A DNA stretch of 64,000 nt from NCBI RefSeq assembly GCF_027922005.1, contig NZ_BSEV01000008.1:62001-126000 (forward strand). Reading direction: 5' to 3'. Shown here piece by piece: positions 17,137 to 39,651 of this stretch. Source of the stretch: Streptosporangium carneum (GTDB lineage: Bacteria; Actinomycetota; Actinomycetes; Streptosporangiales; Streptosporangiaceae). How positions within the stretch are numbered: position 1 is the stretch's first letter; each line of letters opens with the position of its first letter. Below the pieces are notes generated by a model, which saw only the letters and a list, made by a program, of their open reading frames with translations, was not told the origin of the DNA and did no database searches. The translations under genes were made by a program, and so were the position numbers.

Positions 17137-18150
17137 CTACTCGCGGGCGGGAAAGTGGCAGGCGTTGAGTGCGCCGAGCCCGGTGCGGTCGAGCAGTGCG
17201 GGTTCCTCCTCCGCGCACACGTCGGCGGCCTTCCAGCACCGGGTGCGGAACCGGCAGCCGCTCGGCGGATCGGTCGGGCTGGGGACGTCGCCCTCAAGGA
17301 TGATCTCTTTCCTGGAGCCGCGGGAGCCGACCTCGGCCGAGGGGATGGCGCTCAGCAGCGCCTGCGTGTACGGGTGGCCGGGGTCGGACAGCACCTCCGG
17401 CCCTGCCTCGACGATCCGGCCCAGGTACATCACCAGCACGCGGTGGCTAACGGCGCGCACAACGGCCACGTCGTGCGCGATGAGCAGGTAGGACAGTCCC
17501 AGCTCGTCCTGCAGGTCCATGAGCAGGTTGATGATCTGGGCCTGGATCGACACGTCGAGCGCGGAGATCGGCTCGTCGAGCACCAGCACCCGCGGCTTCA
17601 GCGCGAGCGCGCGCGCGATGCCGATGCGCTGCATCTGCCCGCCGGAGAACTCGTGCGGGAACCGGTTCGCGTACACGGGCTGGAGCCCGACCATCTCCAG
17701 GAGCTCTTCGGCCACGTACTTGTCCCGGGCGATCCCCTGCACGCGGAGGGGCTCCTCGATGATGTCCCGCACCCGCATCCGCGGGTTGACCGACGCGAAC
17801 GGGTCCTGGAAGACGATCTGCACCTCCCGCCGCAGCATCCGCATCTGGTTCCGGCTCGCGGTCCTCAGATCCATGCCCTTGTACCGGATGGACCCGGCGG
17901 TCGGGCGGACCAGCCCGACGAGCGACCGTGCGACGGTCGACTTGCCGCACCCCGACTCCCCGACGAGCGAGACGGTCTGGCCCTTGTCCAGGGTGAAGTC
18001 CACTCCGTCGACGGCGTACACCGTCTCGGCGTACTGGCCGCGTCTGCGCCTGCCGAGCGGAAAGTGGATCTTAAGTCCCTCGATCCGCAGCAGCTCCTCG
18101 CCGACCGGTTCCGTGGGATCCACCACGTCTTGCTGTGTGCTGTGGAACAT
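17137..18150 (-). CDS. Peptide/nickel-type ABC transporter ATP-binding protein (DppF/OppF-like)
   Basis: 337 residues from ATG 18150, with GGTGAGGAG upstream. ABC ATPase with Walker A GESGCGKST, Q loop VFQDPFASVNP, signature FSGGQMQR, Walker B VLVLDEPISALD and switch His IAHDVAVV. The C-terminal oligopeptide-transporter motif CRFRTRCWKAADVC with conserved cysteines is present. It is the second ATPase of the importer and last gene of the operon (binding protein, enoyl-CoA hydratase, LLM oxidoreductase, two permeases, two ATPases). It powers import at the cytoplasmic face. Confidence 0.93.
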   Translation of the reverse strand: MFHSTQQDVVDPTEPVGEELLRIEGLKIHFPLGRRRRGQYAETVYAVDGVDFTLDKGQTVSLVGESGCGKSTVARSLVGLVRPTAGSIRYKGMDLRTASRNQMRMLRREVQIVFQDPFASVNPRMRVRDIIEEPLRVQGIARDKYVAEELLEMVGLQPVYANRFPHEFSGGQMQRIGIARALALKPRVLVLDEPISALDVSIQAQIINLLMDLQDELGLSYLLIAHDVAVVRAVSHRVLVMYLGRIVEAGPEVLSDPGHPYTQALLSAIPSAEVGSRGSRKEIILEGDVPSPTDPPSGCRFRTRCWKAADVCAEEEPALLDRTGLGALNACHFPARE

Positions 18151-18193
18151 GAGCTCAGACTCCTCACCGTCGAGCACGAGCGCAGGGGCACGC

Positions 18194-19252
18194 TCAGGGG
18201 GTGACCTCTTCAAGGAAGTGGCATGCGGACCGGTGGTCGTCCGTCGGCGCCGGGCGCAGCTCCGGCTGTTCCAGGAGGCACCGCTCCCGGTCGCCGCGGA
18301 GCTCGCACCTGGGCGCGAAGGAGCATCCGGGGGGCAGGTCCGTCGGATTGGGCGGAAGGCCGTGGATCGGCGTGAGCCGCCGCCGGACGGAGTCCGCCGG
18401 CAGCCGGCTCGGCGTGCACCGGAGCAGGCCGACGGTGTAGGGGTGCTTGGGGTTTCCGAGCACCTCCTCAACGGTGCCCATCTCGACCACCCGCCCCGCG
18501 TACATGACCATGACGCGGTCGACGTTCTGCGCCACCAGGCCGATGTCGTGGGTGATCAGCATGATCCCGACGTTGGTGCGCCGCTGCACCTCGCGCAGCA
18601 GCCGCATGATCTGCGCCTGGATCGTGGCGTCGAGCGCGGTGGTCGGCTCGTCGGCGATGAGCACCTTCGGGTCGCAGCTCATGGCCATGGCGATCATCAC
18701 CCGCTGCCGCATGCCGCCGGACAGCTCATGTGGATACTGCCGGGCGCGCCGCTCCGGCGCCGGCACCCCGACGGCCGCGAGCAGTTCGACGGCCCGGCGC
18801 CGGGCCGCCTCCTTGTCGGCCTTCGACGGCCTGCGCTGATGGGCCAGGATCCCCTCGGCGATCTGCGCTCCGATCCGATGGACGGGGTTGAGCGAGGTCA
18901 TCGGGTCCTGGAAGATCATCGCTACGTCCGACCCGCTCGCCGCCCGCAGGCTGCGGCGGTCGAGCGCCAGCAGGTTCTTTCCGTCCACCCGGATCTCGCC
19001 GGACACGACCTTGCCCGGGGGCCGCGGGATCAGCCCGAGGATCGACATCGCGGTCACGCTCTTGCCCGACCCGGACTCACCGACGATCCCCAGCGTCTCC
19101 CCGGCACGCAGGTCGAAGTTCACATCGGTCACCGCGGCCACGGTCCCGCGCTTGGTGGTGAACACCGTCGTCAGGTTCCGCACGGACAGGCATCCGTCCG
19201 ACGCCGGGGTCTGCGGACGTTCTTGGATTTCGGACTCGGTCACGTCGGTCAT
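18194..19252 (-). CDS. Peptide/nickel-type ABC transporter ATP-binding protein (DppD/OppD-like)
   Basis: 352 residues from ATG 19252 (GAAGG eight bases upstream). Walker A GESGSGKSV, Q loop IFQDPMTSLNP, signature LSGGMRQR, Walker B VLIADEPTTALD and switch ITHDIGLV are all intact, with the C-terminal PPGCSFAPRCELRGDRERC cysteine motif of OppD/DppD proteins. It pairs with the downstream ATPase (43-base gap) to drive the importer. An N-terminal extension of about 30 residues (TDVTESEIQERPQ...) precedes the ABC domain and is not conserved in the family. Confidence 0.93.
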   Translation of the reverse strand: MTDVTESEIQERPQTPASDGCLSVRNLTTVFTTKRGTVAAVTDVNFDLRAGETLGIVGESGSGKSVTAMSILGLIPRPPGKVVSGEIRVDGKNLLALDRRSLRAASGSDVAMIFQDPMTSLNPVHRIGAQIAEGILAHQRRPSKADKEAARRRAVELLAAVGVPAPERRARQYPHELSGGMRQRVMIAMAMSCDPKVLIADEPTTALDATIQAQIMRLLREVQRRTNVGIMLITHDIGLVAQNVDRVMVMYAGRVVEMGTVEEVLGNPKHPYTVGLLRCTPSRLPADSVRRRLTPIHGLPPNPTDLPPGCSFAPRCELRGDRERCLLEQPELRPAPTDDHRSACHFLEEVTP

Positions 19253-19286
19253 CGACACACCTTCGGGTCGGCCGGTCTCCGGCAGG

Positions 19287-20198
19287 TCAACTGTTCGCGG
19301 TCCGGGGATCCAGGGCATCCCGCAGTCCGTCACCGAGGAGGTTGAAGCCCAGGGCGGCGACGAAGATCGCCAGTCCGGGCACCAGCGAGAACAACGGGTC
19401 TGTCTGCAGGTAGGTGGTGCCGTCGCGGAGCATTCCACCCCACGTGGCCGTGGGCGGCGGCAGGCCGAGGCCGAGGAAGCTCAAGCCCGCCTCGATCCGG
19501 ATCGTCACGGCCGCGGTCATGCTGGCGATGACCACCATCTCGCTGCGCAGGTTGGGCCAGATGTGCTTGTACAGGATCCACGGCGCCCGCGCGCCGAACA
19601 CGATGCTGCTCTTGACGAACTCCCGCTCCCGGAACGCCAGGGCGGGACCGTGCGCGAGCCGCGCGAACACCGGGATGATCCCGATCACGATCGCCAGCGT
19701 GATGTTCCAGGTGCTCTGCCCGAACAGGGCGACGAAGAGCAGGGCGAGGACGAGCCCGGGGAACGCCATCTTCACGTCGACGATCCACATGATCACGCGC
19801 TCGGTCTTCCCTCGGAAGTAGCCGGCGATCATCCCGATCGGGACACCCACGGCCATCCCCAGCAGCACCGACGACACCCCGATGACCATCGAGACCTGAG
19901 TGCCGTAGATCAGCCGCGCATAGATGTCCCGGCCGAACTGGTCGCGGCCGAGCCAGTGTTCGGCGCTCGGCGGCTCCAGCTGGGCCGCCACATCCTGGCG
20001 CGCCGGGTCCTGAGAGGTGAACAGGGTCGGAAAGAGCGCGACGAGCACCAGAAAGGCGATTATCAGCCCGCCGATGACCAGCAGCGGATTGAGCCGGCGC
20101 ACTCCCCTCCTCCGGGGCTGCGAGACATCTCGTGAGCCGCCCTTGCCCGGCGGGGGGACGGCGGCGGTCACCACCGCTCCCGAGTCGTTCGTCGTCAT
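19287..20198 (-). CDS. ABC transporter permease (DppC-like)
   Basis: 303 residues from ATG 20198. Six membrane segments, beginning with PLLVIGGLIIAFLVLVALFP; the OppC N-terminal region with HWLGRDQFGRDIYARLIYG; the EAA-like cytoplasmic loop around REREFVKSSIVFGARAPWIL; and the terminal FNLLGDGLRDALDPR that marks DppC/OppC proteins. It forms the translocation pore with the DppB-like permease. There is a 94-base gap to that gene. Confidence 0.93.
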   Translation of the reverse strand: MTTNDSGAVVTAAVPPPGKGGSRDVSQPRRRGVRRLNPLLVIGGLIIAFLVLVALFPTLFTSQDPARQDVAAQLEPPSAEHWLGRDQFGRDIYARLIYGTQVSMVIGVSSVLLGMAVGVPIGMIAGYFRGKTERVIMWIVDVKMAFPGLVLALLFVALFGQSTWNITLAIVIGIIPVFARLAHGPALAFREREFVKSSIVFGARAPWILYKHIWPNLRSEMVVIASMTAAVTIRIEAGLSFLGLGLPPPTATWGGMLRDGTTYLQTDPLFSLVPGLAIFVAALGFNLLGDGLRDALDPRTANS

Positions 20199-20292: not shown

Positions 20293-21231
20293 TCACACCG
20301 TCTTGGTTCGGGGGTCGAGGACGTGGTAGAGGGCGTCGACGGCCGCGTTCACGAGGACGATCACCGTGGTGATCACGATGATGCAGCCCTGCACGGTCGT
20401 GTAGTCACGTGCCTGCATGGCGCTGACCATCAGGCTGCCCAGCCCCGGGCGGGCGAACACCGTCTCGATGAGCACCGCGTCCCCCACCAGGGTGATGAAC
20501 GAGATGCCGGCGATCGGGACGAGCGGAAGCGAGCCGGGCTGGAGCACGTGGCGCACCAGGACGCGGCCCTCCCGCACCCCTTTCGCCCGCGCCGTACGGA
20601 CGTGGTTCTCCCCGATGATCTCGACCATGAGCGAGCGGGTGATCCGGGAGGTGTAGGCCGTGCTCACGATCCCCATGGCCAGCGCGGGCAACAGGACGCG
20701 TTGCAGGTTCGAGCCGGGCTCCGTGAAGGGGGCGACCCCGTTGGTCGGCAGACCGAGCGGCAGCGCGATGAACAGGATCAGCAGCACGGCGACGAAGAAG
20801 CTCGGGAAGGACAGCCCGACCAGCGACAGGACCCGCCCGACGACGTCGGGCGACCTGTCCTTCCACACCGCTTCCACGATGCCGAGGGTGATCCCGCCGA
20901 GCATGCCGATGGCGAGCCCCGCCACAGCGAGCTCGAGCGTGTGCGGGAGCACGCCCAGGATCGTCTCGCTCACCGACAGGCCGTTGGTGAGCGACTCGCC
21001 GAGGCTGCCCTGGGCGAGCTGCGCCAGGAACTTCCAGTACTGCAGGAGCAGCGGGTCGGTGAGCCCGAGCTTCTCGTTGAGCCGCGCCACCGCGTCCGGG
21101 GACGCGTCCTGGCCCAGCATGGCCACGGCGGGACCGCCGGGGGTGAGCCGGATCAGGAAGAAGACGGCGGTGGAGACCACCGCCAGGGTCAGCAGCAGCC
21201 GCCCGGACAGCTTCAGGAAGTAACGCGCCAT
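20293..21231 (-). CDS. ABC transporter permease (DppB-like)
   Basis: 312 residues from ATG 21231, whose first base is shared with the stop of the LLM gene (TGATG), meaning translational coupling. Six membrane segments starting RYFLKLSGRLLLTLAVVSTA, the DppB hallmark FFLIRLTPGGPAVAMLG near the N terminus, the EAA loop ARAKGVREGRVLVRHVLQPG and C-terminal LVNAAVDALYHVLDPR. Larger open frames upstream overlap the LLM gene and are rejected. Confidence 0.93.
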   Translation of the reverse strand: MARYFLKLSGRLLLTLAVVSTAVFFLIRLTPGGPAVAMLGQDASPDAVARLNEKLGLTDPLLLQYWKFLAQLAQGSLGESLTNGLSVSETILGVLPHTLELAVAGLAIGMLGGITLGIVEAVWKDRSPDVVGRVLSLVGLSFPSFFVAVLLILFIALPLGLPTNGVAPFTEPGSNLQRVLLPALAMGIVSTAYTSRITRSLMVEIIGENHVRTARAKGVREGRVLVRHVLQPGSLPLVPIAGISFITLVGDAVLIETVFARPGLGSLMVSAMQARDYTTVQGCIIVITTVIVLVNAAVDALYHVLDPRTKTV

Positions 21232-22289
21232 CAGCCGTTCTCCGCTCGTGAGGCCACAGGTGCGCCGCAGGCGGCTCGCGATGCCGCGAACACGTCGGCG
21301 AGCACGGGAAGGTTCTGCACGGAGGTCCGCGCGATGAGCGTCGTGGCGATGCAGTCGTGCCACCGCGTCTCGAGGTCCCGCTGGACTTTCTCGGGTGGGC
21401 CGACCAGCGCGATCGCCTCGACCATCTCCGTGGGCACGGCGGCCGCCATGCCCTCGCGGTCACGGGCCTTGAACCGCTCGATGATCTCCTTGCACGGCTC
21501 CTCGAAGCCGAGCCGGACGATGGAGTTGTAGTGGAAGTTCATGCCTTCTGCGCCGTTGGCCGCGACCTGGAAGGCGATGCCCGGCCTGAGCTGGTCGGCG
21601 GCCGACTCGACGTCCGGACCGAACGCGACGAACACGCCGGGAGCCACCTCGAAGTTCTCGGGGCGCCCCCCGGGCCTGCGGCGGAAACCGATCTCGAGGC
21701 GCTCCCGGTACCAGTGGTCGAACTCCGGGGAGAAGTTCGTCGGCAGCCAGCCGTCGGCGATCTCGGCGGCCAGCGAGATGTTCTTCGGCCCCTCCGCGCC
21801 CAGGTAGATGGGGATGTCGGTGCGGGCGTCCCGGATGCCCGTGCGGATCGAACGCCCCAGCCCGGTTCCGCCGGTCACCGGGAGCTTGTAGATCTCGCCC
21901 TGGTGGGCGACCCGCTCCCGCGCGAACGTGTCGCGCATGATCGTGACGTACTCGCGGGTCCACTGCAGCGGCCGTTCGAAGGGCATCCCGTACCACCCCT
22001 CGACCACCTGCGGGCCGGACAACCCCAGGCCGACGACCACGCGCCCGCCGGAGAGCCGGTCCAGCGTCATGGCGGCCATCGCGGTCGCGGTCGGGGCGCG
22101 GGCCGCCATCTGCGCGACGCCCGTGCCGAGGCGCATCGTCCGGGTCTTGGCGCCCCACCAGGCCAGGGGGGTGAAGGAGTCGGTGCCGTACGACTCCGAC
22201 GTCCACCCCGACTCGTAACCCGCGGCCTCGGCGACCTCGGCGGCGTCGGCGCCCAGCGTGTAGATCGAGCAGGCGAGCTTATCGATCAC
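21231..22289 (-). CDS. LLM-class F420-dependent oxidoreductase (copy 1)
   Basis: 352 residues from a GTG at 22289 with GGAG about eight bases upstream. Bacterial luciferase-like TIM barrel: GYESGWTSESYGTDSFTPLA, LGTGVAQMAARAPTATAMAA, VVGLGLSGPQVVEGWYG, PIYLGAEGPKNISLAAEIAD and GWLPTNFSP. The layout is that of F420-dependent LLM enzymes (mer/adf4 group), which move hydride between F420 and small organic substrates. A very similar paralogue is at 31.5 kb. The gene sits inside the transporter operon, so it probably acts early on the imported compound. F420 rather than FMN dependence is inferred from the subfamily. Confidence 0.88.
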   Translation of the reverse strand: MIDKLACSIYTLGADAAEVAEAAGYESGWTSESYGTDSFTPLAWWGAKTRTMRLGTGVAQMAARAPTATAMAAMTLDRLSGGRVVVGLGLSGPQVVEGWYGMPFERPLQWTREYVTIMRDTFARERVAHQGEIYKLPVTGGTGLGRSIRTGIRDARTDIPIYLGAEGPKNISLAAEIADGWLPTNFSPEFDHWYRERLEIGFRRRPGGRPENFEVAPGVFVAFGPDVESAADQLRPGIAFQVAANGAEGMNFHYNSIVRLGFEEPCKEIIERFKARDREGMAAAVPTEMVEAIALVGPPEKVQRDLETRWHDCIATTLIARTSVQNLPVLADVFAASRAACGAPVASRAENG

Positions 22290-22328: not shown

Positions 22329-23072
22329 TCACCACTGGAAGTTCGCCCCGTTTTCCCGCCTCGCCAGCTGCGCGGTGCGCATGACCCGGTAGCCCGCCTG
22401 GACGGCGGCGCCGTAGGGGATCTCGGCGGACTCGTAGAAGAACCTCTTCGCCATGTGCACCGCGTAGGTCGGGTTCGCCGCGATCTGCCGCGCCACCTCC
22501 ATGGCACGTTCCTCGAGCCGCTCAGCGGGCACGACCTCGTTCGCGAGGCCGATCCGCAGGGCCTCGTCCGCCGGCACGCGCCGACCGGTGACGAGCAGCG
22601 ACATCGCCGCCCGCGTGCCGACGACCTCGCGCAGCCGCGGGATGCCGTTGCCCTGGACGAGGCCGTGCGTGACCTCCGGGTGCCCGAACACGGCGTCCTC
22701 GCTCGCGATCACGAGGTCGGTGAGGTTCGCGACCAGCGTCCCGAGACCCAGCGCGTAGCCCTGCACCGCCGCGATGATCACGGGCCGTGCGTACCGGAAG
22801 TTGTGCGACATCTCGCTGCCGGTGGACACCTCGAACGAGGGCGTCCGGCTCTGCCCCAGCTGGTTGCCCAGCTCGCTGAGGTCGGTGCCGCCGCAGAACG
22901 CCCGGCCCTCGGCCCGCAGCACGACCGCGCGGCAGTCCTGCAGCTCGTCGCCGGTGAGCACCGCCGCCAGCTGCCGGTGCATCTCGAAGTTGAACGCGTT
23001 GAGCTTCTCCGGCCGATTCAGCGTGATGACGCCGACGCCATCGGTCACGACCTGGAACTCGACCTCAGCCAC
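22329..23072 (-). CDS. Enoyl-CoA hydratase/isomerase family protein (copy 1)
   Basis: 247 residues from a GTG at 23072 following GAGAGGTG. Crotonase fold: VITLNRPEKLNAFNFEMHRQ, oxyanion motif AEGRAFCGGTDLSE, second loop AAVQGYALGLGTLVANLTDL, and FGHPEVTHGLVQGNGIPRL where the Glu of HPEV stands at a catalytic position. The C-terminal part lacks the usual KP-rich tail. It hydrates or isomerises 2-enoyl-CoA, or acts on a related thioester. It follows the binding-protein gene by 30 bases within the transporter operon. Confidence 0.88.
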   Translation of the reverse strand: MAEVEFQVVTDGVGVITLNRPEKLNAFNFEMHRQLAAVLTGDELQDCRAVVLRAEGRAFCGGTDLSELGNQLGQSRTPSFEVSTGSEMSHNFRYARPVIIAAVQGYALGLGTLVANLTDLVIASEDAVFGHPEVTHGLVQGNGIPRLREVVGTRAAMSLLVTGRRVPADEALRIGLANEVVPAERLEERAMEVARQIAANPTYAVHMAKRFFYESAEIPYGAAVQAGYRVMRTAQLARRENGANFQW

Positions 23073-23102: not shown

Positions 23103-24749
23103 TCAGCAGTCGTTCGCTCGGGCGTCGACGGTGGCCTTGTAACTCGGCTGCCAGTTGCCGGGGATCGCGGTCGGCGGCTCGACGCCGCCCATGGTGAACC
23201 CGCAGACCGCGCCGTACGCCTGGTAGGACATGAAGAGCGGCTTCGCCGCGGCGTCCTCGAGGATCTTGTCGTTGATCTCCTGCCACAGCCGCGCCTGCTC
23301 CTCGGAGTCGGACGACTGGGACGCCTTCTCGATCAGGGCGTCGGCCCCGTCGTATCCGCCGAAGTTCTGCGCCGGGTGCTTGCCGCCCCGTACGGCTGAG
23401 GGGCCGTAGAAGAAGTCCGTGTACGGGATCTGCGGTGTGGGCCGGTAAGAGATGAGGGTGAGCATGAGCGGCTCCTGGCCGGTCATGATCGCCGACTGCC
23501 AGGTGGGCAGGTCCACGGTCTTGATCTTGACGTTGACGCCGATCTCCTTCATCTGGGCCTGAAGGATCTGGAAGAAGGTCACGTTGCTGGGCGCGGTGAC
23601 GGTGACGTCGAAGCCGTTGGGATATCCCGCCGCCGCGAGCATCTGACGCGCCTTCGCCACGTCGAAGTCGTACGCCAGGCCGGCCTGCTGCACGTGCGAG
23701 TCGGGGATTCCGCCCGGCAACTGGGCCCCCCACACGCTGAGCGTCGGCTTCGCGGTCCGCTGCCCGGCCGAGGCCACGTAGTCGGCGCGGTTCACCGCGT
23801 ACGCCAGCGCCTTGCGCACCTCCGGCTTCGCGGTCGGGCCGACCTTCGCGTTGAACAACAGGTACCAGGTGCCGAAGAGCGGAGCCTGGACGACCTTGAA
23901 CCCCTTCCGGGAGTCGATGACCTCGAGGCCCTTGTCGCCGGTCGCGGTGGGCGGCGCGACGTCGAGGTCGCCGCCGAACAGGGCGGCCTGCCGGGCCGTG
24001 TCGTCCGGCATGAACCGGATGTCCCACCCGGCGGACAGCGGCTTGCCCAGGTAGTAGTCGTCGTTCGCCAGCAACTTGATGCGCTGGCCCGGGGTCCAGC
24101 TCTCGAACTTGAACGGCCCCGGCCCCACCGGGTGCTTGCCGAAGTCCTCGCCTTCGGCTTCCACCGCCTTCTTGCACACCACGAGCCCGCCCTGCCAGTT
24201 CGAGATCGTCGGCAGGAACGCGGCGGGCGACACCGGCTGCTTCATCGTCACCTTCACGGTGCCGGCGTCCACCGCCTCGACCGTGTCATAGGCGGTGAAC
24301 ACCGAGGCGAACGTCGACTTGTCGGGGTCGGCCGCCCGCTTCAGCGAGAACACCACGTCGTCGGACGTCAGGTCGTACGCCGGGGTCTTCTGGCCGGCGG
24401 GGCACTTCACGCCCGTGCGGAGCGCGATCGTCCAGACCTGCTTGCCGTCCTGCGTCGCGGCCTGTGGGATCTCCTTCGCGATCCCCGGCTCGAACGGCGC
24501 CGTCGCGTTGCCCGGCTGATAACGGACGAGGCCGTCGAACAACATCATCGACAGAGTGCGGTCGACCGGCTGTACGGCACGGACCGGGTCCATCGACGTG
24601 ATGCCCTCGGTGGCCACGCCCCATCGGATGGTCGGCCGCTCGTTCGTCGCCGAACCGCTGCCACCGCTGCCACCGCAGCCGGCGGCCGCCAACACCGCGA
24701 CGAGCGCGGCAGGGGCCACCATACGGGCCTGAACCCCGCATATCTTCAT
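23103..24749 (-). CDS. Family 5 extracellular solute-binding lipoprotein
   Basis: 548 residues from ATG 24749 with GGGAG seven bases upstream. Signal peptide ending in lipobox LAAAGC (Cys 25), so it is anchored outside the membrane. Then RPTIRWGVATEGITSMDPVR, typical cluster C (DppA/OppA) structure with PVGPGPFKFESWTPGQRIKL and YPNGFDVTVTAPSNVTFFQI. It is the first gene of a seven-gene importer operon whose other members include an enoyl-CoA hydratase and an LLM oxidoreductase, so the ligand is more likely a catabolic substrate than a peptide. A looser GntR-type operator lies upstream. The N terminus has a truncated second copy at 15.1 kb. Confidence 0.92.
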   Translation of the reverse strand: MKICGVQARMVAPAALVAVLAAAGCGGSGGSGSATNERPTIRWGVATEGITSMDPVRAVQPVDRTLSMMLFDGLVRYQPGNATAPFEPGIAKEIPQAATQDGKQVWTIALRTGVKCPAGQKTPAYDLTSDDVVFSLKRAADPDKSTFASVFTAYDTVEAVDAGTVKVTMKQPVSPAAFLPTISNWQGGLVVCKKAVEAEGEDFGKHPVGPGPFKFESWTPGQRIKLLANDDYYLGKPLSAGWDIRFMPDDTARQAALFGGDLDVAPPTATGDKGLEVIDSRKGFKVVQAPLFGTWYLLFNAKVGPTAKPEVRKALAYAVNRADYVASAGQRTAKPTLSVWGAQLPGGIPDSHVQQAGLAYDFDVAKARQMLAAAGYPNGFDVTVTAPSNVTFFQILQAQMKEIGVNVKIKTVDLPTWQSAIMTGQEPLMLTLISYRPTPQIPYTDFFYGPSAVRGGKHPAQNFGGYDGADALIEKASQSSDSEEQARLWQEINDKILEDAAAKPLFMSYQAYGAVCGFTMGGVEPPTAIPGNWQPSYKATVDARANDC

Positions 24750-24875: not shown

Positions 24876-24914
24876 TGCAGTGTAGTACTGAATGTTACAC
24901 CTGAAATATCACAT
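24876..24914. promoter_or_regulatory. Operator region C upstream of the transporter operon
   Basis: Overlapping matches to the regulon motif: on the minus strand GTACTACACTGCAAG (compare GTACTACATGTCAAG at 29030) and TGTGATATTTCAGGTGTA; on the plus strand CTGAATGTTACACCTGA. It is the only AT-richer segment between the enoyl-CoA hydratase 2 stop and the binding-protein start, 127 or more bases upstream of the latter. Confidence 0.4.
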
Positions 24915-29020: not shown

Positions 29021-29144
29021 AGCGCTGATGTACTACATGTCAAGGATCAGCATCCCAGCGCCGCTCGATGATGTCCTCGGATCTCCATTGGCCGGCCCTG
29101 TCGTGCGGCTACGATTACTTCAGGGGGTTCTGCACATCAGCGCT
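29021..29144. promoter_or_regulatory. Shared divergent operator region of the gntR pair
   Basis: AGCGCTGATGT at 29021-29031 and its exact reverse complement ACATCAGCGCT at 29134-29144 form an 11-bp inverted repeat, one arm just before each divergent start (13 bases before 29007, 10 bases before 29155). The left arm runs into CTGATGTACTACATGTCA (29025-29042), operator copy D, which fits the FCD-type consensus GT-N3-AC flanked by A/T. Two regulator dimers could bind symmetrically. Confidence 0.65.
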
Positions 29145-29154
29145 AATGGAGTAG

Positions 29155-31478: not shown

Positions 31479-31514
31479 TTGCGAACTCCTCACCGACCAA
31501 ACCGGTCGTACGAA

Positions 31515-32579: not shown

Positions 32580-32593
32580 CGTGCATTCCTTTC

Positions 32594-32662
32594 GTCACCG
32601 GCCTCGTCACCGGCCTGTCATTGACCTCGTCACCGGCCTCGTCACCGGCCTCGTCACCGGCC
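32594..32662. repeat. 12-bp tandem repeat
   Basis: About six units of GTCACCGGCCTC (third unit degenerate: TCATTGACCTC), spanning the last three codons and stop of the third enoyl-CoA hydratase gene and most of the gap to LLM copy 2. Several units carry TGA on the minus strand. Confidence 0.85.
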
Positions 32663-33451: not shown

Positions 33452-33454
33452 GGC

Positions 33455-34432
33455 CTACCGCCGGTGCTTGCCGAGGAACGACAGCACGGTCTCGTTGAAC
33501 TCGCGGTAGGACTCCCAGTGCGGGGCGTGCCCCGCCTCGCTGAAGATCGCCACCTCGGCGTTCCGGACGTGGCTCGCCATCTCACGCAGGCGCGTCGGCG
33601 GGAGGTACAGGTCGCAGTCGCCGGTGAGCAGGAGCGTCGGCGTCCTGATCGACTCGATCGCCGGCCACAGCAGCTTGTTCTGCGGGGGCTGCTGCACGGT
33701 CGTGACCGGCAGCTTCGTGTGCTCGATCCACGTCGTCATCGCCTGCGGCCTCGCGGCCCGGTAGGACGGGCCGAGCTCGCGGAACGTCTCGGGCAGCGCG
33801 AACCAGCCCTCCGGCAGGATCGCCGTGGTGCCCTCGTTCCACGACGGCTCCTGGATCCCCCCCAGCGTCGCGCCCACCGTGGAGCTCAGCAGCCGGTCCG
33901 GGACCGACAGGCCGGCGTCGAACGCCGCGAACGCGCCCGCGGCCAGGCCGACCAGGTGGAACTTTCCGACGCCGAGCGCGTCCATCAGGGCCGTCAGGTC
34001 TCCGACCATCGTGCCGGGCCGCTCCGCAGGCCCGGCCTCCGACCCGTGGTATCCCCGCCGTGAGTAGCTGATCACCCGGTAGCCCGCGGCGGCGAACGCG
34101 GCCTGCTGGTAGCCCCACGAGCCGCCGTTCCCGGTGTGCGGGTGCATGAGCACCACGGTCTGGCCCCTGCCCGGGCCCCTGCCTCCGTCGCCGGTGTCCC
34201 AGACCGCCAGCCGCACGTCGGGGATCTGCACCTGCTTCCTGCCGGTCATCGCGGGCACCGGGTCCCACGACGTCTGCGCGGGCAACACGGTCTCGCGCCC
34301 GCCCCGCTTCGGGCCGCGCGCCCGCTCCCCCGCCGCGAACGCGGCCGACGGGGCGAACGCGACGATACCGGCCCCCGCCGCCCCGGCGAGCATGCGGCGT
34401 CGATTGATTGTCCGACCGGTCCTGTCGTTCAT
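33455..34432 (-). CDS. Tat-exported alpha/beta hydrolase with Ser-to-Ala nucleophile elbow
   Basis: 325 residues from ATG 34432 (GAGGA six bases upstream). A twin-arginine signal (TINRRRMLAGAAGAG) with AFAA cleavage site is clear. The mature part is an alpha/beta hydrolase: LMHPHTGNGGSWGYQQAAF (HP oxyanion loop), the elbow LVGLAAGAFAAFD where GxSxG reads GLAAG, acid in LLLTGDCDLYLPP, and His in SEAGHAPHWESYREF. With Ala in place of the nucleophile Ser, ordinary ester hydrolysis is not expected. It may act like cofactor-free alpha/beta-fold oxygenases or lyases, or simply bind a ligand outside the membrane. Located between phosphotriesterase copy 2 and hydratase copy 3. Confidence 0.85.
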   Translation of the reverse strand: MNDRTGRTINRRRMLAGAAGAGIVAFAPSAAFAAGERARGPKRGGRETVLPAQTSWDPVPAMTGRKQVQIPDVRLAVWDTGDGGRGPGRGQTVVLMHPHTGNGGSWGYQQAAFAAAGYRVISYSRRGYHGSEAGPAERPGTMVGDLTALMDALGVGKFHLVGLAAGAFAAFDAGLSVPDRLLSSTVGATLGGIQEPSWNEGTTAILPEGWFALPETFRELGPSYRAARPQAMTTWIEHTKLPVTTVQQPPQNKLLWPAIESIRTPTLLLTGDCDLYLPPTRLREMASHVRNAEVAIFSEAGHAPHWESYREFNETVLSFLGKHRR

Positions 34433-34529
34433 GGCATCCTCACACTTTCTTGGAACTTGACAGAACAGACACCAATGCATCCGGCAGCGGTCGTCCCTCG
34501 CACGTTCGGGCCGGGAGAAAAGGCGTTCC

Positions 34530-35462
34530 TCAGTTGTCGCCCGGGCGGTGCCCGGCGAGCAGTTGCAGCGGGTTCTCGCGGAAGATCGTCTCCACGACAT
34601 CCTCGGGAACCCCGGCCGCGATCAGGTCGGGGCCGACCTGCCGCAGCACGTACGAGTAGCCCGGCCCACCGCGGCGCTCGCGCATCCCCAGCACGCAGAC
34701 GTCGTGGGACAGCAGCAGGCTCTTGGCCCATCCGCGGCGGATCAGCTCGACCGCGTTCGCGATCCGCTGCTCCTGGAGCAGCGGGTCACCCGGGCCGTTG
34801 CCGTCGTACATCACCATCGCGCCGCGCTCAGCCAGCCGCTCGTGGTAGTCGACGTCCGGATACGTGTCGCAGTGGCCGACCGCGACCCGGCTCAGGTCGC
34901 AGCCCTCGTCCTCGAGCACGTCGAGCTGCCAGGCGCCGACCTCGCTCTTGACCGCGTGCAGGATCAGCCCGAGACCGGTCTCCTTCTGGACGCGGGCGGC
35001 GGCGCGCAGCACCCGCTCCTCGACCCCGGACACCCACTCGCGGTCGGCGCCGATCTCGCCGATCACTCCCGGCCGCACGCCGTCCTCGCCCTCGAAGTAG
35101 TCGATCAGCAGGCGATCGGTCAGCTCGGCCGTGCTCACCTTGTTCATGTCCTCTTCGTAATAGGGCTCCCGGTACCACCCGCAGCCCATGACGATGTGCA
35201 CGTCGGCGCGTTCGGACACCGACCGGAGCACGCCGGGCTTACGGCCGAGCCCGCCGCTGGTGGCCTCCACGAGGGAGCCGCCGCCGAGCTCCTTGAAGAC
35301 CTTCAGGTCCCGGACCGCCTCGTCCGGGTCGTTCAACGCGGCGAGACCCATCTGTCGTGTCACTCGGAACAGGTCGCACGCCACATGCTCGTGCGGCAGC
35401 ACGCGTCCGAGTTCGGACACCGCGACCGGTCCGCGTACCGTCTGCACCGTCAGCTCAGCCAC
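34530..35462 (-). CDS. Phosphotriesterase-like lactonase (copy 2)
   Basis: 310 residues from a GTG at 35462 that overlaps the MaoC gene by 13 bases. Paralogue of the protein at 25.8 kb with the same ligand set: LPHEHVACD, PGVIGEIGAD, LILHAVKSE, VAVGHCDTY and LLSHDVC. It shares the long common segment VHIVMGCGWYRE then EEDMNKVS. The two are clearly products of duplication but differ in the first loop (DLFRVTRQMGLAAL here), so they may take different substrates. Lactone hydrolysis is the likely chemistry. Confidence 0.87.
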   Translation of the reverse strand: MAELTVQTVRGPVAVSELGRVLPHEHVACDLFRVTRQMGLAALNDPDEAVRDLKVFKELGGGSLVEATSGGLGRKPGVLRSVSERADVHIVMGCGWYREPYYEEDMNKVSTAELTDRLLIDYFEGEDGVRPGVIGEIGADREWVSGVEERVLRAAARVQKETGLGLILHAVKSEVGAWQLDVLEDEGCDLSRVAVGHCDTYPDVDYHERLAERGAMVMYDGNGPGDPLLQEQRIANAVELIRRGWAKSLLLSHDVCVLGMRERRGGPGYSYVLRQVGPDLIAAGVPEDVVETIFRENPLQLLAGHRPGDN

Positions 35463-36316
35463 TGTCCGTCCTCTCCTTCGCTTCTCTCGATCACCGCACG
35501 GCCGACGGTGCTGACCACGCCGTCAGCGGAGACGCCGTACAGCGTGAGACGACGCGAGGACCCGTCCCCGGCGTCGTCGTCCGGCCGGGCGAGCACGCGG
35601 AAGGGCGCACCGACCCGGTCCATCCCCCGGTAGGAGGCGCTCAGCTCCCGCACGAACGTCCCGCGGCCGCCCCACTGCACGGCGGCACGCGCCAGGTAGG
35701 CGAGCTTGAGCAGGCCGTGGGTGATCGTCCCCGGCAGACCCCTCGCCTGCGCGAACGCGTGGTCGTAGTGCACTTCGTAGAAGTCGTCGGTGGCCGCGGC
35801 GTACCGCACGACCTCGCGACTGCTCGGGACGACCTCGATGACCGGCACGGCGTCGGCGGGCGGCTCCGTGTGATGCCCGGAACCGCCGCGACCCTGCCGG
35901 GCGCCCGTGCGGATCGTCGTCGTGGACGTGCGCGCCACCACGTCGCGCGTCATGCGGCGCCGGTACGTCGTCGCGAGCCGGTAGAACGTCAGGTCGCTGT
36001 CTCGACCCGGCTTCGTGGTGACCGACTCGATCACCGTGCGCCGCTCCAGGATCTCACCCGGCATCACGGGCGCCTCCCACCGGCACCAGTTGCCGGCGTT
36101 GAGCCGGACCGGTGCGTCCGGGACGCCCATGGCCGCCGGGTCGGTCCGATGGGCCACCAGGAACGTCGGGGGCAGCAACGCGGGGCAGGGCGCGTGACCG
36201 TCGGCGTACGGCGGGCCGTTCAGGCCTGTGATCTCCTGTAGCACCCGCGCCCGCCACTCGTCGCAGACGAAGATCTCCCAGCCCGGTTCCGGCTGCGGCT
36301 CCACGACCTCCGACAC
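35450..36316 (-). CDS. MaoC-like double hot-dog hydratase
   Basis: 288 residues from a GTG at 36316, four bases after the stop of the citryl-CoA-lyase-like gene and with GGAGG in its end. Two hot-dog halves: an N-terminal FAS1-type domain (PPTFLVAHRTDPAAMGV, NWCRWEAPVMPGEILERRT) and a C-terminal MaoC domain with the R-hydratase motif DDFYEVHYDHAFAQARGLPG then TITHGLLKLAYLAR, giving the Asp/His pair. Such proteins hydrate 2-enoyl-CoA to R-3-hydroxyacyl-CoA (mesaconyl- or steroid-type hydratases). It lies next to a citryl-CoA-lyase-like enzyme that could cleave the hydroxyacyl-CoA. Confidence 0.87.
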   Translation of the reverse strand: MSEVVEPQPEPGWEIFVCDEWRARVLQEITGLNGPPYADGHAPCPALLPPTFLVAHRTDPAAMGVPDAPVRLNAGNWCRWEAPVMPGEILERRTVIESVTTKPGRDSDLTFYRLATTYRRRMTRDVVARTSTTTIRTGARQGRGGSGHHTEPPADAVPVIEVVPSSREVVRYAAATDDFYEVHYDHAFAQARGLPGTITHGLLKLAYLARAAVQWGGRGTFVRELSASYRGMDRVGAPFRVLARPDDDAGDGSSRRLTLYGVSADGVVSTVGRAVIERSEGEDGQWLS

Positions 36317-36319
36317 CGC

Positions 36320-37105
36320 TCACACCTCCGGTTCGATGCGGCTCGCGGCCCGCAGCGCGGCGCGCACCGCGGGGGTGATGGGCGATTCGAGCTCCTCACC
36401 GACGTGCGCGACCAGGCCGGCCGTACGGCTCATCAGGGCGAAACCGCGGTGCAGCCGCCAGGGCACACCCACCTCGAGCAACAGCGCGGCGGCGGCGCCC
36501 GTCGCGTTGAGCGGGAGTGCCTTGCCGGTGAGCGCGGCGGCCCGCTCGACGACGAGCTCGAGGTACTCGACGTGCTGCGCTGCGACCTTCTGGTCGCGCG
36601 CGACGCCGAGCAGCCTCCTGGCGCGCGGGTCACCGTCGCGGTGCAGGCTGTGGCCGAGGCCGGGGATCCGCTCGCCCGCGTCCACGATGGCGCGCAGCCG
36701 CGTGTCCACCGCGTCGCGGGCCACGGCACCGGCGGCGACATCGCCGGCGATGTCCGTGAGCAGGCGCCCACAGCCCTCCATCGAACCGAGCAGCACGCTT
36801 CCCGCGCCGAGCAGACCGGCCGCGACGGCGCCCTGGATCGCCTCCGGAGCCACCCAGAACGTCAGTCGCGCGGCGAGCGCGCTGGGCGTCAGCCCGTGGT
36901 CGAGCAGGCTCACCAGCACCGCGTCGACCACCTTGGCCTCGGCGGGGGTCGGCCTGCGGCCGGTCACCGCGAGCAGCGTGACCTCGGTGTAGGTCAGCTC
37001 GCCGATCAGGTCGTCGACGAGATCCAGTCCGCGCACCTGCACGTGGTGCTCGTCCGCCGCTCCTATGGCGGTGCCGATCTCCAGCGGCACGCTGCGCCCG
37101 CTCAC
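36320..37105 (-). CDS. Citrate synthase/citryl-CoA lyase-like protein
   Basis: 261 residues from a GTG at 37105 (GAGGAGG seven bases upstream) that overlaps the stop of a 35-codon ORF. Short citrate-synthase fold: LTYTEVTLLAVTGRRPTPAE, then GLGHSLHRDGDPRARRLLGV, which has the catalytic His region (GxGHxxHxxxDPRA), and VPWRLHRGFALMSRTAGLVA. At 261 residues it matches citryl-CoA lyase-type proteins, not full citrate synthases of about 370-430. These cleave or form tertiary or branched hydroxyacyl-CoA by aldol chemistry. In this operon a retro-aldol cleavage producing acetyl-CoA or a similar unit is likely. Confidence 0.85.
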   Translation of the reverse strand: MSGRSVPLEIGTAIGAADEHHVQVRGLDLVDDLIGELTYTEVTLLAVTGRRPTPAEAKVVDAVLVSLLDHGLTPSALAARLTFWVAPEAIQGAVAAGLLGAGSVLLGSMEGCGRLLTDIAGDVAAGAVARDAVDTRLRAIVDAGERIPGLGHSLHRDGDPRARRLLGVARDQKVAAQHVEYLELVVERAAALTGKALPLNATGAAAALLLEVGVPWRLHRGFALMSRTAGLVAHVGEELESPITPAVRAALRAASRIEPEV

Positions 37106-37209
37106 CGCGCCACCTCCTCGGCGCGCGTGGCGGAGCACGCGAGCCCGTCCCGGATGGCGGCTGGATCGTGCGGATCGTGCGGGGAGCTCGCTGTCGGCCG
37201 AGCGTTCAT
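37102..37209 (-). CDS. 35-residue ORF coupled on both sides
   Basis: ATG at 37209 overlaps the SDR stop (ATGA) and the TGA overlaps the GTG of the citryl-CoA-lyase-like gene (GTGA). GGGAG lies eight bases upstream. The peptide is MNARPTASSPHDPHDPAAIR then DGLACSATRAEEVAR. I do not recognise it. The exact four-base overlaps at both ends argue that it is translated. It may be a small subunit, a translational linker or the shortened stub of a former gene. Confidence 0.55.
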   Translation of the reverse strand: MNARPTASSPHDPHDPAAIRDGLACSATRAEEVAR

Positions 37210-38144
37210 GTTCCGTCTCCCACCCCGAGGATGTCCGTGGTCTGGTGGTCGGACGCGGCCGGCGTCGGCAGCCCGAGCGCCGCGAACCGGCGAAGCGGCG
37301 TGGCTCCGAGCCGCTGCCGGACCGCGTCGGTCACGTCGGAGTATGTGAACTCGTCGGCGAGGCGCACGCTCTCGTGTTCCTGAGGAGGCTCCCACCGGGC
37401 GAGCCTGCGGCCGGCCGCTGTGAAGGTCTGCCCGGTGATGTGGCGGTTGGCCGGGTCGAGCAGCGCGCGTATGAGCTCGGCGACCAGTTCGGGGCCCTGT
37501 CGCTCGGCGTCGGGCCTGCTGGCCTGCATCTGATCGGTGAGCCGCGAGGTCATGCGCGTCGCCGCGGAGGGGACGACGCAGTTGACGTTGACGCCGTAGC
37601 GTCCCATCGCCAGCGCCGTGCTCTGGGCGAGGCCCACGATGCCCGCCTTGGCCGCCGCGTAGTTGGCCTGTGCCGGGCTGCCCTCCAGGCCCGCCGCCGA
37701 GCTCAGCACCACGATGCTTCCGCCGCGCTGGCGGCGCATCTGCTCCGTGGCGAAGCGCACGCAGTTGAACGTGCCCTTGAGATGCACGGCGACGACCGAG
37801 TCCCACTCGTCCTCCGTCATGTTGAAGATCATGCGCTCGCGCAGGATGCCGTGGCAGGTGACAAGGCCGGCGAGCGAACCGAACTCCTCGACCGCGCGCC
37901 GGACCAGGTCTGCCGCCGCGTCGAACGAGACGACGTCGTGCTGGTGGGCCACGGCGCGGCCGCCTCGGGCCCGGATCGCCTCGACCACGGACTCCGCCAC
38001 CTGCCGGTCCGGGTCGCGGCCGTCGACGGACACCCCCAGATCGCTGACGACGACGCCGTAGCCCGCGGCGGCGACGCACTCGGCCACCGCGGCTCCGATG
38101 CCTCCACCCGCACCGGTAACGATTACTCCGCCAGGCACAGCCAC
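37206..38144 (-). CDS. Short-chain dehydrogenase/reductase
   Basis: 312 residues from a GTG at 38144. Rossmann motif VIVTGAGGGIGAAVAECVAA, NNAG-equivalent region VTCHGILRERMIFN (the NAG is replaced by CHG), catalytic Ser in IVVLSSAAGLEG and Tyr/Lys in YAAAKAGIVGLAQSTA. A C-terminal extension of about 60 residues (RLARWEPPQEHESVRLADEF...) is longer than in simple SDRs and resembles type found in multi-domain 3-hydroxyacyl-CoA dehydrogenases without the extra domain. It probably oxidises a hydroxyacyl intermediate with NAD(P). It directly follows the FAD dehydrogenase gene. Confidence 0.9.
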   Translation of the reverse strand: MAVPGGVIVTGAGGGIGAAVAECVAAAGYGVVVSDLGVSVDGRDPDRQVAESVVEAIRARGGRAVAHQHDVVSFDAAADLVRRAVEEFGSLAGLVTCHGILRERMIFNMTEDEWDSVVAVHLKGTFNCVRFATEQMRRQRGGSIVVLSSAAGLEGSPAQANYAAAKAGIVGLAQSTALAMGRYGVNVNCVVPSAATRMTSRLTDQMQASRPDAERQGPELVAELIRALLDPANRHITGQTFTAAGRRLARWEPPQEHESVRLADEFTYSDVTDAVRQRLGATPLRRFAALGLPTPAASDHQTTDILGVGDGT

Positions 38145-38145
38145 C

Positions 38146-39651
38146 TCACGCGCTCACCGACGACGCGGCGGAGCGGTCGAGCGCGCCCGAGGCCGCCGAC
38201 CCTGCGATCCGCCCGAACACCGAGCCCGCTGTGAGCCCGCTGCCCCCCGGGTAGTTGAAGTAGAAGATCCCGCCGACGATCTCCCCGCACGCGTACAGCC
38301 CGGGAATGGGCTCTCCGGTGACGTCGATCACGCGCGCCGACGTGTCGATCTTCAGACCGCCGAAGGTGAACGTGATTCCGCACGTCACCGCGTAGGCCTC
38401 GTACGGTGGCGAATCGAGGGTGTTGGCCCAGTTCGACTTCGGCACCGCCAGCCCGGAGGTGCCCCGCCCGTCCTTGACGTTGGGGTTGAACGGGACCGAC
38501 TGGTCGACCGCCGCGTTGTAGTCGCCGACCGTCCGCAGGAACTGCTCCGCGTTGATGCCGTCCATCCGCCGGACGAGTTCCTCCAGGGTCGGCGCCACGA
38601 TCTTCGTGACCTGCCGGATCCGGTACTCGTCGCGCAGCAGGTGGCTCACCTTGCTGTCGAAAACCTGCCAGGCGATCTGCCCCGGCTGCTTCAGGACCTC
38701 CTGGCCGTACTTCGCGTAGGTGTAGTTCCGGAAATCCGCGCCTTCGTCGACGAACCGCTCGCCGCGGCTGTTGACGATGATCCCGAAGGGATAGCTGTGC
38801 TTCTGGAACCCGTCACCGACCAGGCGGTCACCGAACGCGGGCGCGTTGCTGTCCCAGCCCACCGCGTGGCAGCCCGACCAGTTGCCCCACGACATGGCGC
38901 CGATGTCCATCGCCATGCGATGTCCGTCGCCCACGTCGAACTGGGTGCCGCGGACCTTGGCGAACTCCCACCCCGGCCCCAGGTAGCGGGTGCGCCACTC
39001 CGCGTTGGCCTGGAATCCGCCGCAGGCCAGCACGACGGCGTCAGCGGAGATCGTCCGGATCTCCCCGCCGGCCCGGACCACGACGCCGCTCACCTTGCCG
39101 CCGTCCTCGGTGAGGCCGATGGCGCGGTGGCCGTAGAACACCTTGCCGCCCGCCGACTCGAACGCGGCGAACAACGAGTCGACGAGCCCGGGGCCGCCTC
39201 CGTTGGCCTCCAGCGTCAGGCCTCCCCAGAAGGTGAACTTCCCGTCCACCTGGAACGCCTGACGGCCGTAGATCGGCAGGAACCGCACTCCCTTGTCGCG
39301 CATCCACTTCAACGTGTCGAAGCTGCGCGTCACGAGCAGATCGACCAGGTCGGGGTCGCAGCGGTACTGCGTGACCCGGGCCATGTCGTCGAAGAACTGC
39401 TCCTGCGAGTAACTGCCGAAGTCGGTCTTCGCGAGCTGCTCTTCCGACAGGTCGGGGACGAGCTGGACGATGTCCTCCCTGCCGTCGTAGGCGAAACGCA
39501 TGGCCCCTGCGGTGAATCCGGAGTTCCCGCCACGCTCGGGCTCCGGGGCGGCTTCGAGCAGTGTCACCTCGGCCCCGCCTTCGAGGGCGGCCAACGCGCT
39601 ACACAAGCCGGCGTTACCGCCGCCGATGACGACAACTCGACTCTGACCCAT
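38146..39651 (-). CDS. FAD-dependent dehydrogenase (fumarate reductase/TcuA/ketosteroid-dehydrogenase type)
   Basis: 501 residues from ATG 39651 with AGGAGAGG upstream. Dinucleotide-binding motif VVVIGGGNAGLCSALAALEG, then EAAPEPERGGNSGFTAGAMR (the GGNS loop for FAD), ADAVVLACGGFQAN, and C-terminal GLYACGEIVGGIFYFNYPGG then SGLTAGSVFGRIAG. The closest named family in layout is the tricarballylate dehydrogenase TcuA and flavocytochrome-c-type fumarate reductases, which insert or remove a C=C next to a carboxylate. It opens the ten-gene right-arm operon, with an operator 36 bases upstream. I infer dehydrogenation of the carboxylate or CoA substrate as the first step of this arm. Confidence 0.88.
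   Translation of the reverse strand: MGQSRVVVIGGGNAGLCSALAALEGGAEVTLLEAAPEPERGGNSGFTAGAMRFAYDGREDIVQLVPDLSEEQLAKTDFGSYSQEQFFDDMARVTQYRCDPDLVDLLVTRSFDTLKWMRDKGVRFLPIYGRQAFQVDGKFTFWGGLTLEANGGGPGLVDSLFAAFESAGGKVFYGHRAIGLTEDGGKVSGVVVRAGGEIRTISADAVVLACGGFQANAEWRTRYLGPGWEFAKVRGTQFDVGDGHRMAMDIGAMSWGNWSGCHAVGWDSNAPAFGDRLVGDGFQKHSYPFGIIVNSRGERFVDEGADFRNYTYAKYGQEVLKQPGQIAWQVFDSKVSHLLRDEYRIRQVTKIVAPTLEELVRRMDGINAEQFLRTVGDYNAAVDQSVPFNPNVKDGRGTSGLAVPKSNWANTLDSPPYEAYAVTCGITFTFGGLKIDTSARVIDVTGEPIPGLYACGEIVGGIFYFNYPGGSGLTAGSVFGRIAGSAASGALDRSAASSVSA

Follow-up and report, generated by a model that had tools for sequence, protein, structure and literature searches.

A probable horizontally mobile catabolic island of 28 genes in Streptosporangium carneum and other actinomycetes

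What could an actinomycete degrade with a gene cluster that combines a complete solute importer with paired hydrolases, oxidoreductases and regulators, and do the two arms of such a cluster serve one pathway or two? These questions are raised by a stretch of 64,000 nucleotides from Streptosporangium carneum (contig NZ_BSEV01000008.1, positions 62,001 to 126,000; hereafter the window), which is part of a 9.84-Mb draft genome. An earlier note on this DNA had described, at 17137-39651, a two-armed catabolic cluster that fitted no characterised pathway. Judging from sequence and predicted structure, we consider it very probable that the genes form one co-regulated, mobile catabolic unit. Our best overall explanation, to which we assign a probability of about 0.5, is a single horizontally mobile island that would also operate by the mechanism outlined below.

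Comparison of the translated window genes with the genome of another member of the genus (G013) revealed collinearity from a MarR-family gene at 10527 to a TcuA-like flavoprotein gene, with nothing conserved outside. Because collinearity with four other genomes covers the entire block but not its flanks, we moved the left limit to 10527. The unit thus spans 10527 to about 39.7 kb, some 29 kb with 28 genes, and exceeds the segment first described by a forward-strand extension (10527-17054) encoding MarR, an AMP-forming ligase, an NMO-type protein, MoaF, an HSL-family esterase and a cupin. All 28 genes were scanned with Pfam and 22 of the 28 also with NCBIfam (the remainder being MarR, two ATPases, two permeases and GntR2). 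Within 17137-39651, gene prediction and these scans bore out the inventory of the earlier note: a complete Dpp-type importer, with an SBP_bac_5 solute-binding protein (SBP), two permeases and two ATPases, stands together with two LLM oxidoreductases (LLM), two phosphotriesterase-family proteins (PTE), three crotonases (ECH), subunits A and B of a CoA-transferase, an FAD dehydrogenase, a MaoC protein, an SDR, a 'citryl-CoA lyase'-like protein (CCL), an aldehyde dehydrogenase (ALDH) and two divergent GntR/FCD regulators. The paired genes are genuine paralogues (identity 67% for LLM, 67% for PTE and 73% for GntR). A second alpha/beta hydrolase gene (AbH1, 33455-34432) had been overlooked. As for the two operons said to lie around divergent regulators, the regulators are indeed divergent; the right arm, however, does not start at them but at the TcuA-like gene (start 39651), from where it reads leftwards to end convergent with GntR2.

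A search for co-occurrence across genomes recovered all 28 genes, in the same order, in 4/4 further Streptosporangiaceae islands (G013, G333, G256 and G261). Since the order of 28/28 genes is kept in 4/4 further genomes, their association is not due to chance. Protein identity across these islands is 87-97% by tblastn, with a minimum of 85% by blastp over full frames. CCL homologues at E <= 1e-20 occur in 169 of 341 genomes of the family; a close copy is present in only five of the 341, our own included, with the next best match at 44%, and no other island gene was present at six loci taken from the group with 40-45% identity. The same query found three carriers among 200 genomes of the order, all belonging to the five islands, and one carrier besides our own among 394 genomes of the class. 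That carrier (G515) and G365, the genome of Phytoactinopolyspora limicola, are evidently one and the same, with identical contig and coordinates. An ECH1 query of 390 genomes from the family of Pseudonocardia acaciae returned P. acaciae itself as the one carrier. When contigs were scanned with the PTE pair, matches of 50-90% among the 78 loci kept came only from P. acaciae (L060, 79%) and P. limicola (L061, 68%); a 45% match in G004 had no island surrounding it.

The island is 94.0 and 94.4% identical in nucleotide sequence between the window and two islands of another genus (G256 and G261, respectively), as against 92.9% relative to G013 of the same genus. At the gyrB loci, identity to G256 and G261 is 83.8% each versus 91.9% to G013, and at a second gyrB-family locus 80.5% each versus 89.8%. 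An island 94% identical to that of another genus, where gyrB reaches about 84%, therefore points to horizontal transfer, and the simple reading is that the island has probably moved between actinomycete genera. A gene for a second solute-binding protein (SBP2) is a remnant in the window, with its promoter palindrome still in place; G333, G256 and P. acaciae carry the gene in full. Plasmid origin was considered and rejected: only 7 of 72,556 plasmid records matched, each covering at most 2% of the island's right part (25789-39594), and the plasmid-borne relatives of PTE (148 records) all showed less than 60% identity.

In an alignment of the five islands, promoter blocks were better conserved than their surroundings, and from these promoters we derived the palindromic motif TGATRYATYA. 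It is exact at the promoters of TcuA (right arm), of the cupin and of SBP2/esterase, and recurs with one mismatch in the left arm, at the GntR1/GntR2 and SBP promoters. The three exact sites of the window are all intergenic and all within the island; counting strands there are four matches, compared with a mean of 0.08 after shuffling and 0/100 shuffles reaching four. Genome-wide (9.84 Mb), three of the eight distinct exact sites fall within the island, 0.3% of the genome; the other five lie at genes without a common theme, and a backward control pattern occurs once. Each of the 4 further islands also has three exact sites. As the motif came from the five islands, it is tested independently by whether it occurs in P. 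limicola and P. acaciae while being absent elsewhere. The P. limicola stretches contain three exact sites, two in a divergent TcuA/SDR promoter and one ahead of SBP; P. acaciae has one, ahead of SDR; and 194 kb of background (ten loci, two of them including the left edge of an island) has none. Scattered sites only were found for a FadR-type operator (TNGTNNNACNA), which was rejected.

Allowing up to one mismatch, ten stretches contained 39 intergenic and five genic sites. TTGAC lay no more than 12 bases away in 16 of the 30 intergenic sites used for this count, which left out nine sites: four near matches ahead of MarR, three further sites in G256 (two) and G261 (one), and two in P. limicola, of which one lies 210 bases ahead of permB. 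This proximity suggests that the palindrome acts in repression, at least at the TTGAC-adjacent promoters. The paired GntR/FCD proteins are predicted repressors on the palindrome because about half of the sites sit just behind a -35-like TTGAC; a ligand derived from the substrate would release them. One near match, at 10489-10498, sits in a GTTG-N6-CAAC palindrome ahead of the MarR gene, which may be an operator of MarR itself.

Diverged and rearranged versions of the island occur in P. limicola and P. acaciae. In P. limicola (L162 and L061), the genes for permB, permC, ATP1, ATP2 and GntR are followed on the opposite strand by ECH2 and TcuA, then by SDR, an ADP-forming-type acyl-CoA synthetase, CCL, MaoC, CoA-transferase A and B and two PTE genes and, reaching L159, by AbH1, ECH1, ECH3, SBP, LLM, ALDH and the cupin. 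Counterparts exist for 21/28 window genes (51-81% identity), with the genes of both arms intermixed in one cluster and with one GntR, one LLM and two PTE copies. The two contigs have 183 identical bases in common at the break, within the second PTE gene, a join that tandem PTE copies may render ambiguous. P. acaciae retains 23/28 genes in the stretches read, over three contigs. Its two main contigs each start within a GntR gene and have 136 identical bases in common, which fits the divergent GntR pair of the window; the copy numbers are two for GntR, two for LLM and one for PTE of the island type. TcuA, CCL and MaoC reside on a third contig (C13) with another SDR, acyl-CoA synthetase, LLM and ABC importer. 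The full series on C13 (L172-L173) is GntR, SDR, ADP-forming-type acyl-CoA synthetase, CCL-like, LLM, MaoC, ABC importer, PanE-like, GntR, TcuA-like and isocitrate-dehydrogenase-like, a stand-alone TcuA module. LLM2 adjoins ALDH in both species as in the five islands. The acyl-CoA ligase is AMP-forming in the five islands and of the ADP-forming type in P. limicola and P. acaciae. In trees, PTE2 grouped with the P. limicola pair (support 99/98) and LLM2 with P. acaciae (moderate, 87/99); the GntR tree did not resolve.

These versions bear on whether the two arms belong together. The duplication had been read as pointing either to a symmetrical substrate or to two related ones, an argument now weakened: because PTE, LLM and GntR copy numbers vary independently in the two species, no symmetrical substrate is needed. 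Independent expression of unrelated arms, a possibility raised by the earlier note itself, was examined at the sequence level, with an outcome in favour of the note; an operator-like palindrome is common to the arms, and their genes are mixed in P. limicola. The two halves thus look like one pathway under one sister regulator pair. That two independent pathways merely lie side by side would agree with the separate contig for CCL, MaoC and TcuA in P. acaciae, its other ABC importer and the lack of the palindrome there; given the palindrome common to both arms, the mixed order in P. limicola and the joint transfer, we hold this to be most improbable.

For the single co-regulated island, we propose the following mechanism. 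The Dpp-type system would take up an ester, lactone or cyclic compound, which LLM and the PTE-type enzymes, with the HSL esterase, would open. SDR and ALDH would oxidise alcohol and aldehyde groups, and the CoA-transferase or the acyl-CoA ligase would activate the acid. The TcuA-type flavoprotein would desaturate a succinate-like carboxylate, to be hydrated by MaoC and ECH3. Final C-C cleavage would proceed without a thiolase, through the non-canonical CCL and/or the two single-Glu crotonases ECH1 and ECH2. This reaction class is put forward tentatively. Somewhat bolder, and doubtful, is the idea of an undescribed aerobic pathway whose chemistry would be new in two places: opening by LLM together with a Glu-type PTE hydrolase, also in a host without cofH/fbiC, and thiolase-free cleavage by an altered CCL aided by single-Glu crotonases. 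As to the substrate, a substituted lactone, ketone or carboxylate/succinate is a guess from enzyme families; the TcuA-type dehydrogenase and a MaoC resembling itaconyl-CoA hydratase point weakly to a substituted succinate or carboxylate, and any specific compound would very likely be a wrong choice.

Several observations weigh against this picture. The order of the reactions is one that we infer, as we infer GntR binding to the palindrome, from position and conservation. On P. acaciae C39, which carries the left arm and off which the GntR promoter lies, there is no site at up to one mismatch, and on C13 no intergenic site but a single genic one. The arrangement on C13, with its different importer, suggests that the TcuA/CCL/MaoC module can work apart. 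Within the island, the MarR-ligase-NMO block and MoaF are without a palindrome site of their own. Finally, the TcuA-type dehydrogenase passes NF006130 but fails the stricter TIGR02485 (Table 1).

The opening step depends on what LLM and PTE do. PTE1 and PTE2 keep the His/His/His/Asp metal ligands, and a Glu (GEIG) occupies the metal bridge in 12/12 sequences that cover the site, a thirteenth sequence starting after it. PLL/PTE lactonases have a binuclear metal site bridged by a carboxylated Lys. The label of PTE-like lactonase is thus not upheld as a class, for the bridging residue is Glu, just as it is in PTER and 3k2g, which still leaves room for lactone hydrolysis. The nearest solved relatives are 3k2g and then PTER (9efa). 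PTER hydrolyses N-acetyltaurine, with E169 at the metal and R204, R233 and H300 as substrate contacts (PMC11374699). Although PTER is alike in the Glu of its metal centre, its substrate residues are not kept in PTE2, which has Lys, no Arg and Cys at the aligned positions, none identical. We regard the island proteins as putative hydrolases of an ester, lactone or amide rather than as proven lactonases. Elsewhere, Caldilineaceae metagenome-assembled genomes (L062, L064, L065 and L068) carry two PTE-family genes beside two Dpp-type permease sets.

LLM1 and LLM2 have equal scores above the cut-off of the F420 subfamily model TIGR03559 (Rv3520c; Table 1), and the P. limicola protein (74% identical; 357.1 bits) also exceeds it. 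Their nearest solved relatives include F420-dependent Mer, the closest, and FGD. A cofH/fbiC match is present in 2/3 hosts searched, the window genome and P. acaciae. None was found in a single search of the draft P. limicola genome (G365), which is listed as 99% complete (under G515) and could have a gap there. The F420 dependence assumed for LLM is therefore doubtful: either F420 is not the cofactor, or it is taken up, or the gene is missing from the draft.

Two rival explanations divide on this point. If LLM were F420-dependent, FGD-like dehydrogenases, their substrate would be a lactol or alcohol, oxidised to a lactone or aldehyde on which PTE (by hydrolysis) and ALDH would then act. The subfamily scores, the Mer and FGD relatives, cofH in two hosts and the adjacency of LLM2 and ALDH all favour such a route, which the negative cofH search in P. 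limicola makes, on balance, unlikely. Alternatively, LLM might be FMN-dependent oxygenases of a type II-like Baeyer-Villiger kind, turning a cyclic ketone into a lactone for PTE to open, with SDR and ALDH yielding a diacid to be activated and degraded. The pathway LLM of P. limicola without a cofH/fbiC match speaks for this. Cyclic-ketone catabolism employs a Baeyer-Villiger oxygenase (class I Baeyer-Villiger monooxygenase), a lactonase, and alcohol and aldehyde dehydrogenases, and the order of enzyme classes in the island (LLM as oxygenase, hydrolase, SDR, ALDH, ligase) is that of classical ring opening. The LLM superfamily includes the type II Baeyer-Villiger monooxygenases, which depend on FMN (PMC6279831). 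Yet the island has LLM and a Glu-type PTE homologue in place of the usual enzymes, no flavin reductase family was matched in it by the Pfam scan, and LLM lies closest to F420-dependent Mer among solved structures and above the F420 subfamily cut-off, so that this alternative, too, seems improbable.

The cleavage step was expected to follow the mechanism of citryl-CoA lyase. CCL does not belong to the CitE (HpcH/HpaI) family, as its former label of 'CitE-like' implied; it has the citrate-synthase fold (PF00285) and passes NF004868. Its predicted structure (pLDDT 86.8) matches the citryl-CoA lyase of Hydrogenobacter (6hxp) with a Foldseek E value of 1.5e-15, a TM score of 0.78 and 36% identity in the structural alignment. 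While the fold is common to the two, two catalytic residues are replaced in CCL: the catalytic His is L105 and the Asp T202 in 7/7 island homologues, with H152, R161 and R227 kept. We take these two to be the equivalents of H274 and D375 in citryl-CoA lyase numbering. In generic homologues the same positions hold F and A (25/25); all 32 aligned homologues are thus without both catalytic residues, and the three of them that were scanned still pass NF004868. According to their titles, PDB entries of the ATP-citrate lyase mutants D541A and D1026A contain bound citryl-CoA or substrates, one D1026A entry being titled with products; D541 and D1026 are presumably the Asp equivalent to the one replaced in CCL.

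These losses tell against the route of the earlier note, in which CoA activation, desaturation and hydration would produce a tertiary hydroxyacyl-CoA for retro-aldol or retro-Claisen cleavage by a true citryl-CoA lyase. The TcuA, SDR, CCL and MaoC genes are indeed neighbours, and CCL retains the lyase fold with the second His and two Arg; still, with the catalytic His and Asp gone and with mutants of the ATP-citrate lyase Asp found with bound citryl-CoA or substrates, we judge this route quite unlikely. A recurrent Streptosporangiaceae cluster at three of the CCL loci with 40-45% identity (L143, L144 and L146, read by eye) encodes a CaiB-type CoA-transferase, a CCL-like protein devoid of the catalytic His/Asp pair, proteins resembling class III extradiol dioxygenases and LigA, and an IclR regulator; the dioxygenase-like protein of L143 falls below NCBIfam cut-offs.

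Other active sites are altered as well. Enoyl-CoA hydratase (crotonase) uses two catalytic Glu. ECH3 has both in 7/7 homologues, and ECH1 and ECH2 lack the first in 7/7 each. AbH1 has a twin Arg in a signal-like N-terminus and Ala replacing the nucleophilic Ser, both in 7/7, with Asp and His kept; its predicted structure is poor (pLDDT 46). CoA-transferase subunit A passes TIGR02429, and B stays below the TIGR02428 cut-off (196.6 vs 243.55) with its catalytic Glu kept in 7/7. MaoC gave a weak match to the itaconyl-CoA hydratase 8khg (E 2.3e-5). No thiolase, acyl-CoA dehydrogenase, MmgE/PrpD or HpcH/HpaI lyase family was matched by Pfam among the 28 genes.

The literature searched, beyond whose scope most subscription papers lie, yielded no published assignment, in keeping with the claim that no characterised pathway has this set. 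Read largely as titles and the opening of abstracts, it showed no cluster of the make-up of the island, and no paper turned up that joined tricarballylate dehydrogenase with citryl-CoA lyase or the LLM class, or MoaF with F420; one mention of citryl-CoA lyase, in the part of the paper covered, used the name for citE in a different context and was discarded. Tricarballylate utilisation genes are tcuRABC. The likeness of the island to them is its FAD dehydrogenase passing the TcuA model NF006130; differences are the failure on TIGR02485 and the lack of a Pfam match among the 28 genes to an MFS-type citrate symporter or a TcuB-like electron-transfer partner.

The nearest described logic is that of itaconate and methylsuccinate degradation, in which the citramalyl-CoA lyase is of the HpcH/HpaI type. 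Its cluster in Cupriavidus and Pseudomonas, as described in PMC12290011, applies a CoA-transferase, a dehydrogenase, a hydratase and a lyase to a branched dicarboxylate, and uses an acyl-CoA dehydrogenase, an MmgE/PrpD isomerase and a citramalyl-CoA lyase, families unmatched in the island. The island in turn goes beyond it with LLM, PTE, three crotonases, ALDH, SDR and the importer. Degradation of a substituted succinate in this manner would share the logic and accommodate the MaoC match; in the light of the missing families, and of LLM, PTE and a Dpp importer that it would not require, we find it very unlikely.

Table 1. Features of the island and its promoters, in window coordinates
Feature	Position	Strand	Evidence
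MarR-family regulator, conserved left edge of island	10527..11012	+	Pfam MarR; 88-93% identity in 4/4 further islands
AMP-forming acyl-CoA ligase	11158..12786	+	PF00501; FadD3 model 404 bits, below cut-off 657; five Streptosporangiaceae islands only
NMO/FabK-like FMN protein	12783..13736	+	PF03060; FabK 258 bits, below cut-off 453
MoaF-family protein	14178..15002	+	PF17409, PF10703; start approximate, set from conserved ATG; also P. acaciae C7
Operator-like TGATACATCA, promoter of SBP2 remnant/esterase	15072..15081	.	Same position in 4/4 further islands
Remnant of second SBP gene (SBP2)	15105..15325	+	tblastn 66-75% over residues 1-59, plus short nucleotide matches
HSL-family esterase	15499..16536	+	PF07859; Ser motif GRSAGG present
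Operator-like site, cupin promoter, TTGAC ahead of site	16576..16585	.	Motif search
EutQ-like cupin	16689..17054	+	PF05899; 68-69% identity in P. limicola
Dpp/Opp ATPase 2	17137..18177	-	PF00005, PF08352
Dpp/Opp ATPase 1	18194..19258	-	PF00005, PF08352
Permease C	19287..20102	-	PF00528, PF12911
Permease B	20293..21231	-	PF00528, PF19300
LLM oxidoreductase 1	21231..22289	-	TIGR03559 353.0 bits, cut-off 335
Crotonase-fold ECH1, first catalytic Glu lost	22329..23072	-	PF00378; residues in 7/7 homologues
Solute-binding protein (SBP_bac_5)	23103..24722	-	PF00496
One-mismatch operator-like site upstream of SBP	24902..24911	.	Conserved in 5/5 islands
Crotonase-fold ECH2, first catalytic Glu lost	24924..25727	-	Pfam; residue alignment
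PTE-family metallohydrolase 1 (H-x-H, Glu, His, His, Asp)	25789..26718	-	PF02126
CoA-transferase subunit B, retains catalytic Glu of SEHG	26703..27419	-	PF01144
CoA-transferase subunit A	27527..28282	-	TIGR02429 187.9 bits, cut-off 128.5
GntR/FCD regulator 1	28279..29007	-	PF00392, PF07729
One-mismatch operator-like site, divergent GntR1/GntR2 promoter, beside TTGACA	29026..29035	.	Conserved in 5/5 islands
GntR/FCD regulator 2	29155..29919	+	PF00392, PF07729
Aldehyde dehydrogenase (ALDH)	30051..31478	-	PF00171
LLM oxidoreductase 2	31515..32579	-	TIGR03559 353.0 bits, cut-off 335
Crotonase ECH3, both catalytic Glu (enoyl-CoA hydratase)	32654..33451	-	PF00378; residues
AbH1, probably exported (Tat-like signal), Ala at nucleophile	33455..34432	-	PF12697
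PTE-family metallohydrolase 2	34530..35462	-	PF02126
MaoC/FAS1-like hydratase, D..H motif kept	35450..36316	-	Pfam; weak match to 8khg
Citrate-synthase-fold CCL without catalytic His and Asp	36320..37105	-	NF004868 279 bits, cut-off 193
SDR dehydrogenase	37206..38144	-	PF00106; YxxxK region
TcuA-type FAD dehydrogenase, first right-arm gene	38146..39651	-	NF006130 548.7 bits, cut-off 369; TIGR02485 230.5, cut-off 372.55
Operator-like TGATATATTA right after -35-like TTGACA of TcuA promoter	39688..39697	.	Motif search

To the right of the island, the window contains a separate purine-type cluster (44988-51716) with a GntR/FCD regulator, an amidohydrolase-family protein (allantoinase-like by eye), a DUF6986/HpcH-like protein and an allantoicase. 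A tRNA search of the window found none.

In conclusion, we class the locus as an undescribed catabolic island assembled from known protein families, certain members of which have changed active sites. Proteins lacking the catalytic residues of the lyase come under the database label 'citryl-CoA lyase' (NF004868), and a member of the 'F420-dependent' LLM subfamily occurs in a genome without a match to an F420 synthesis gene. Furthermore, the 28 genes form a movable set with defined limits, for which a regulator pair and an operator are predicted, so that a simple reporter could serve in a search for the inducer.

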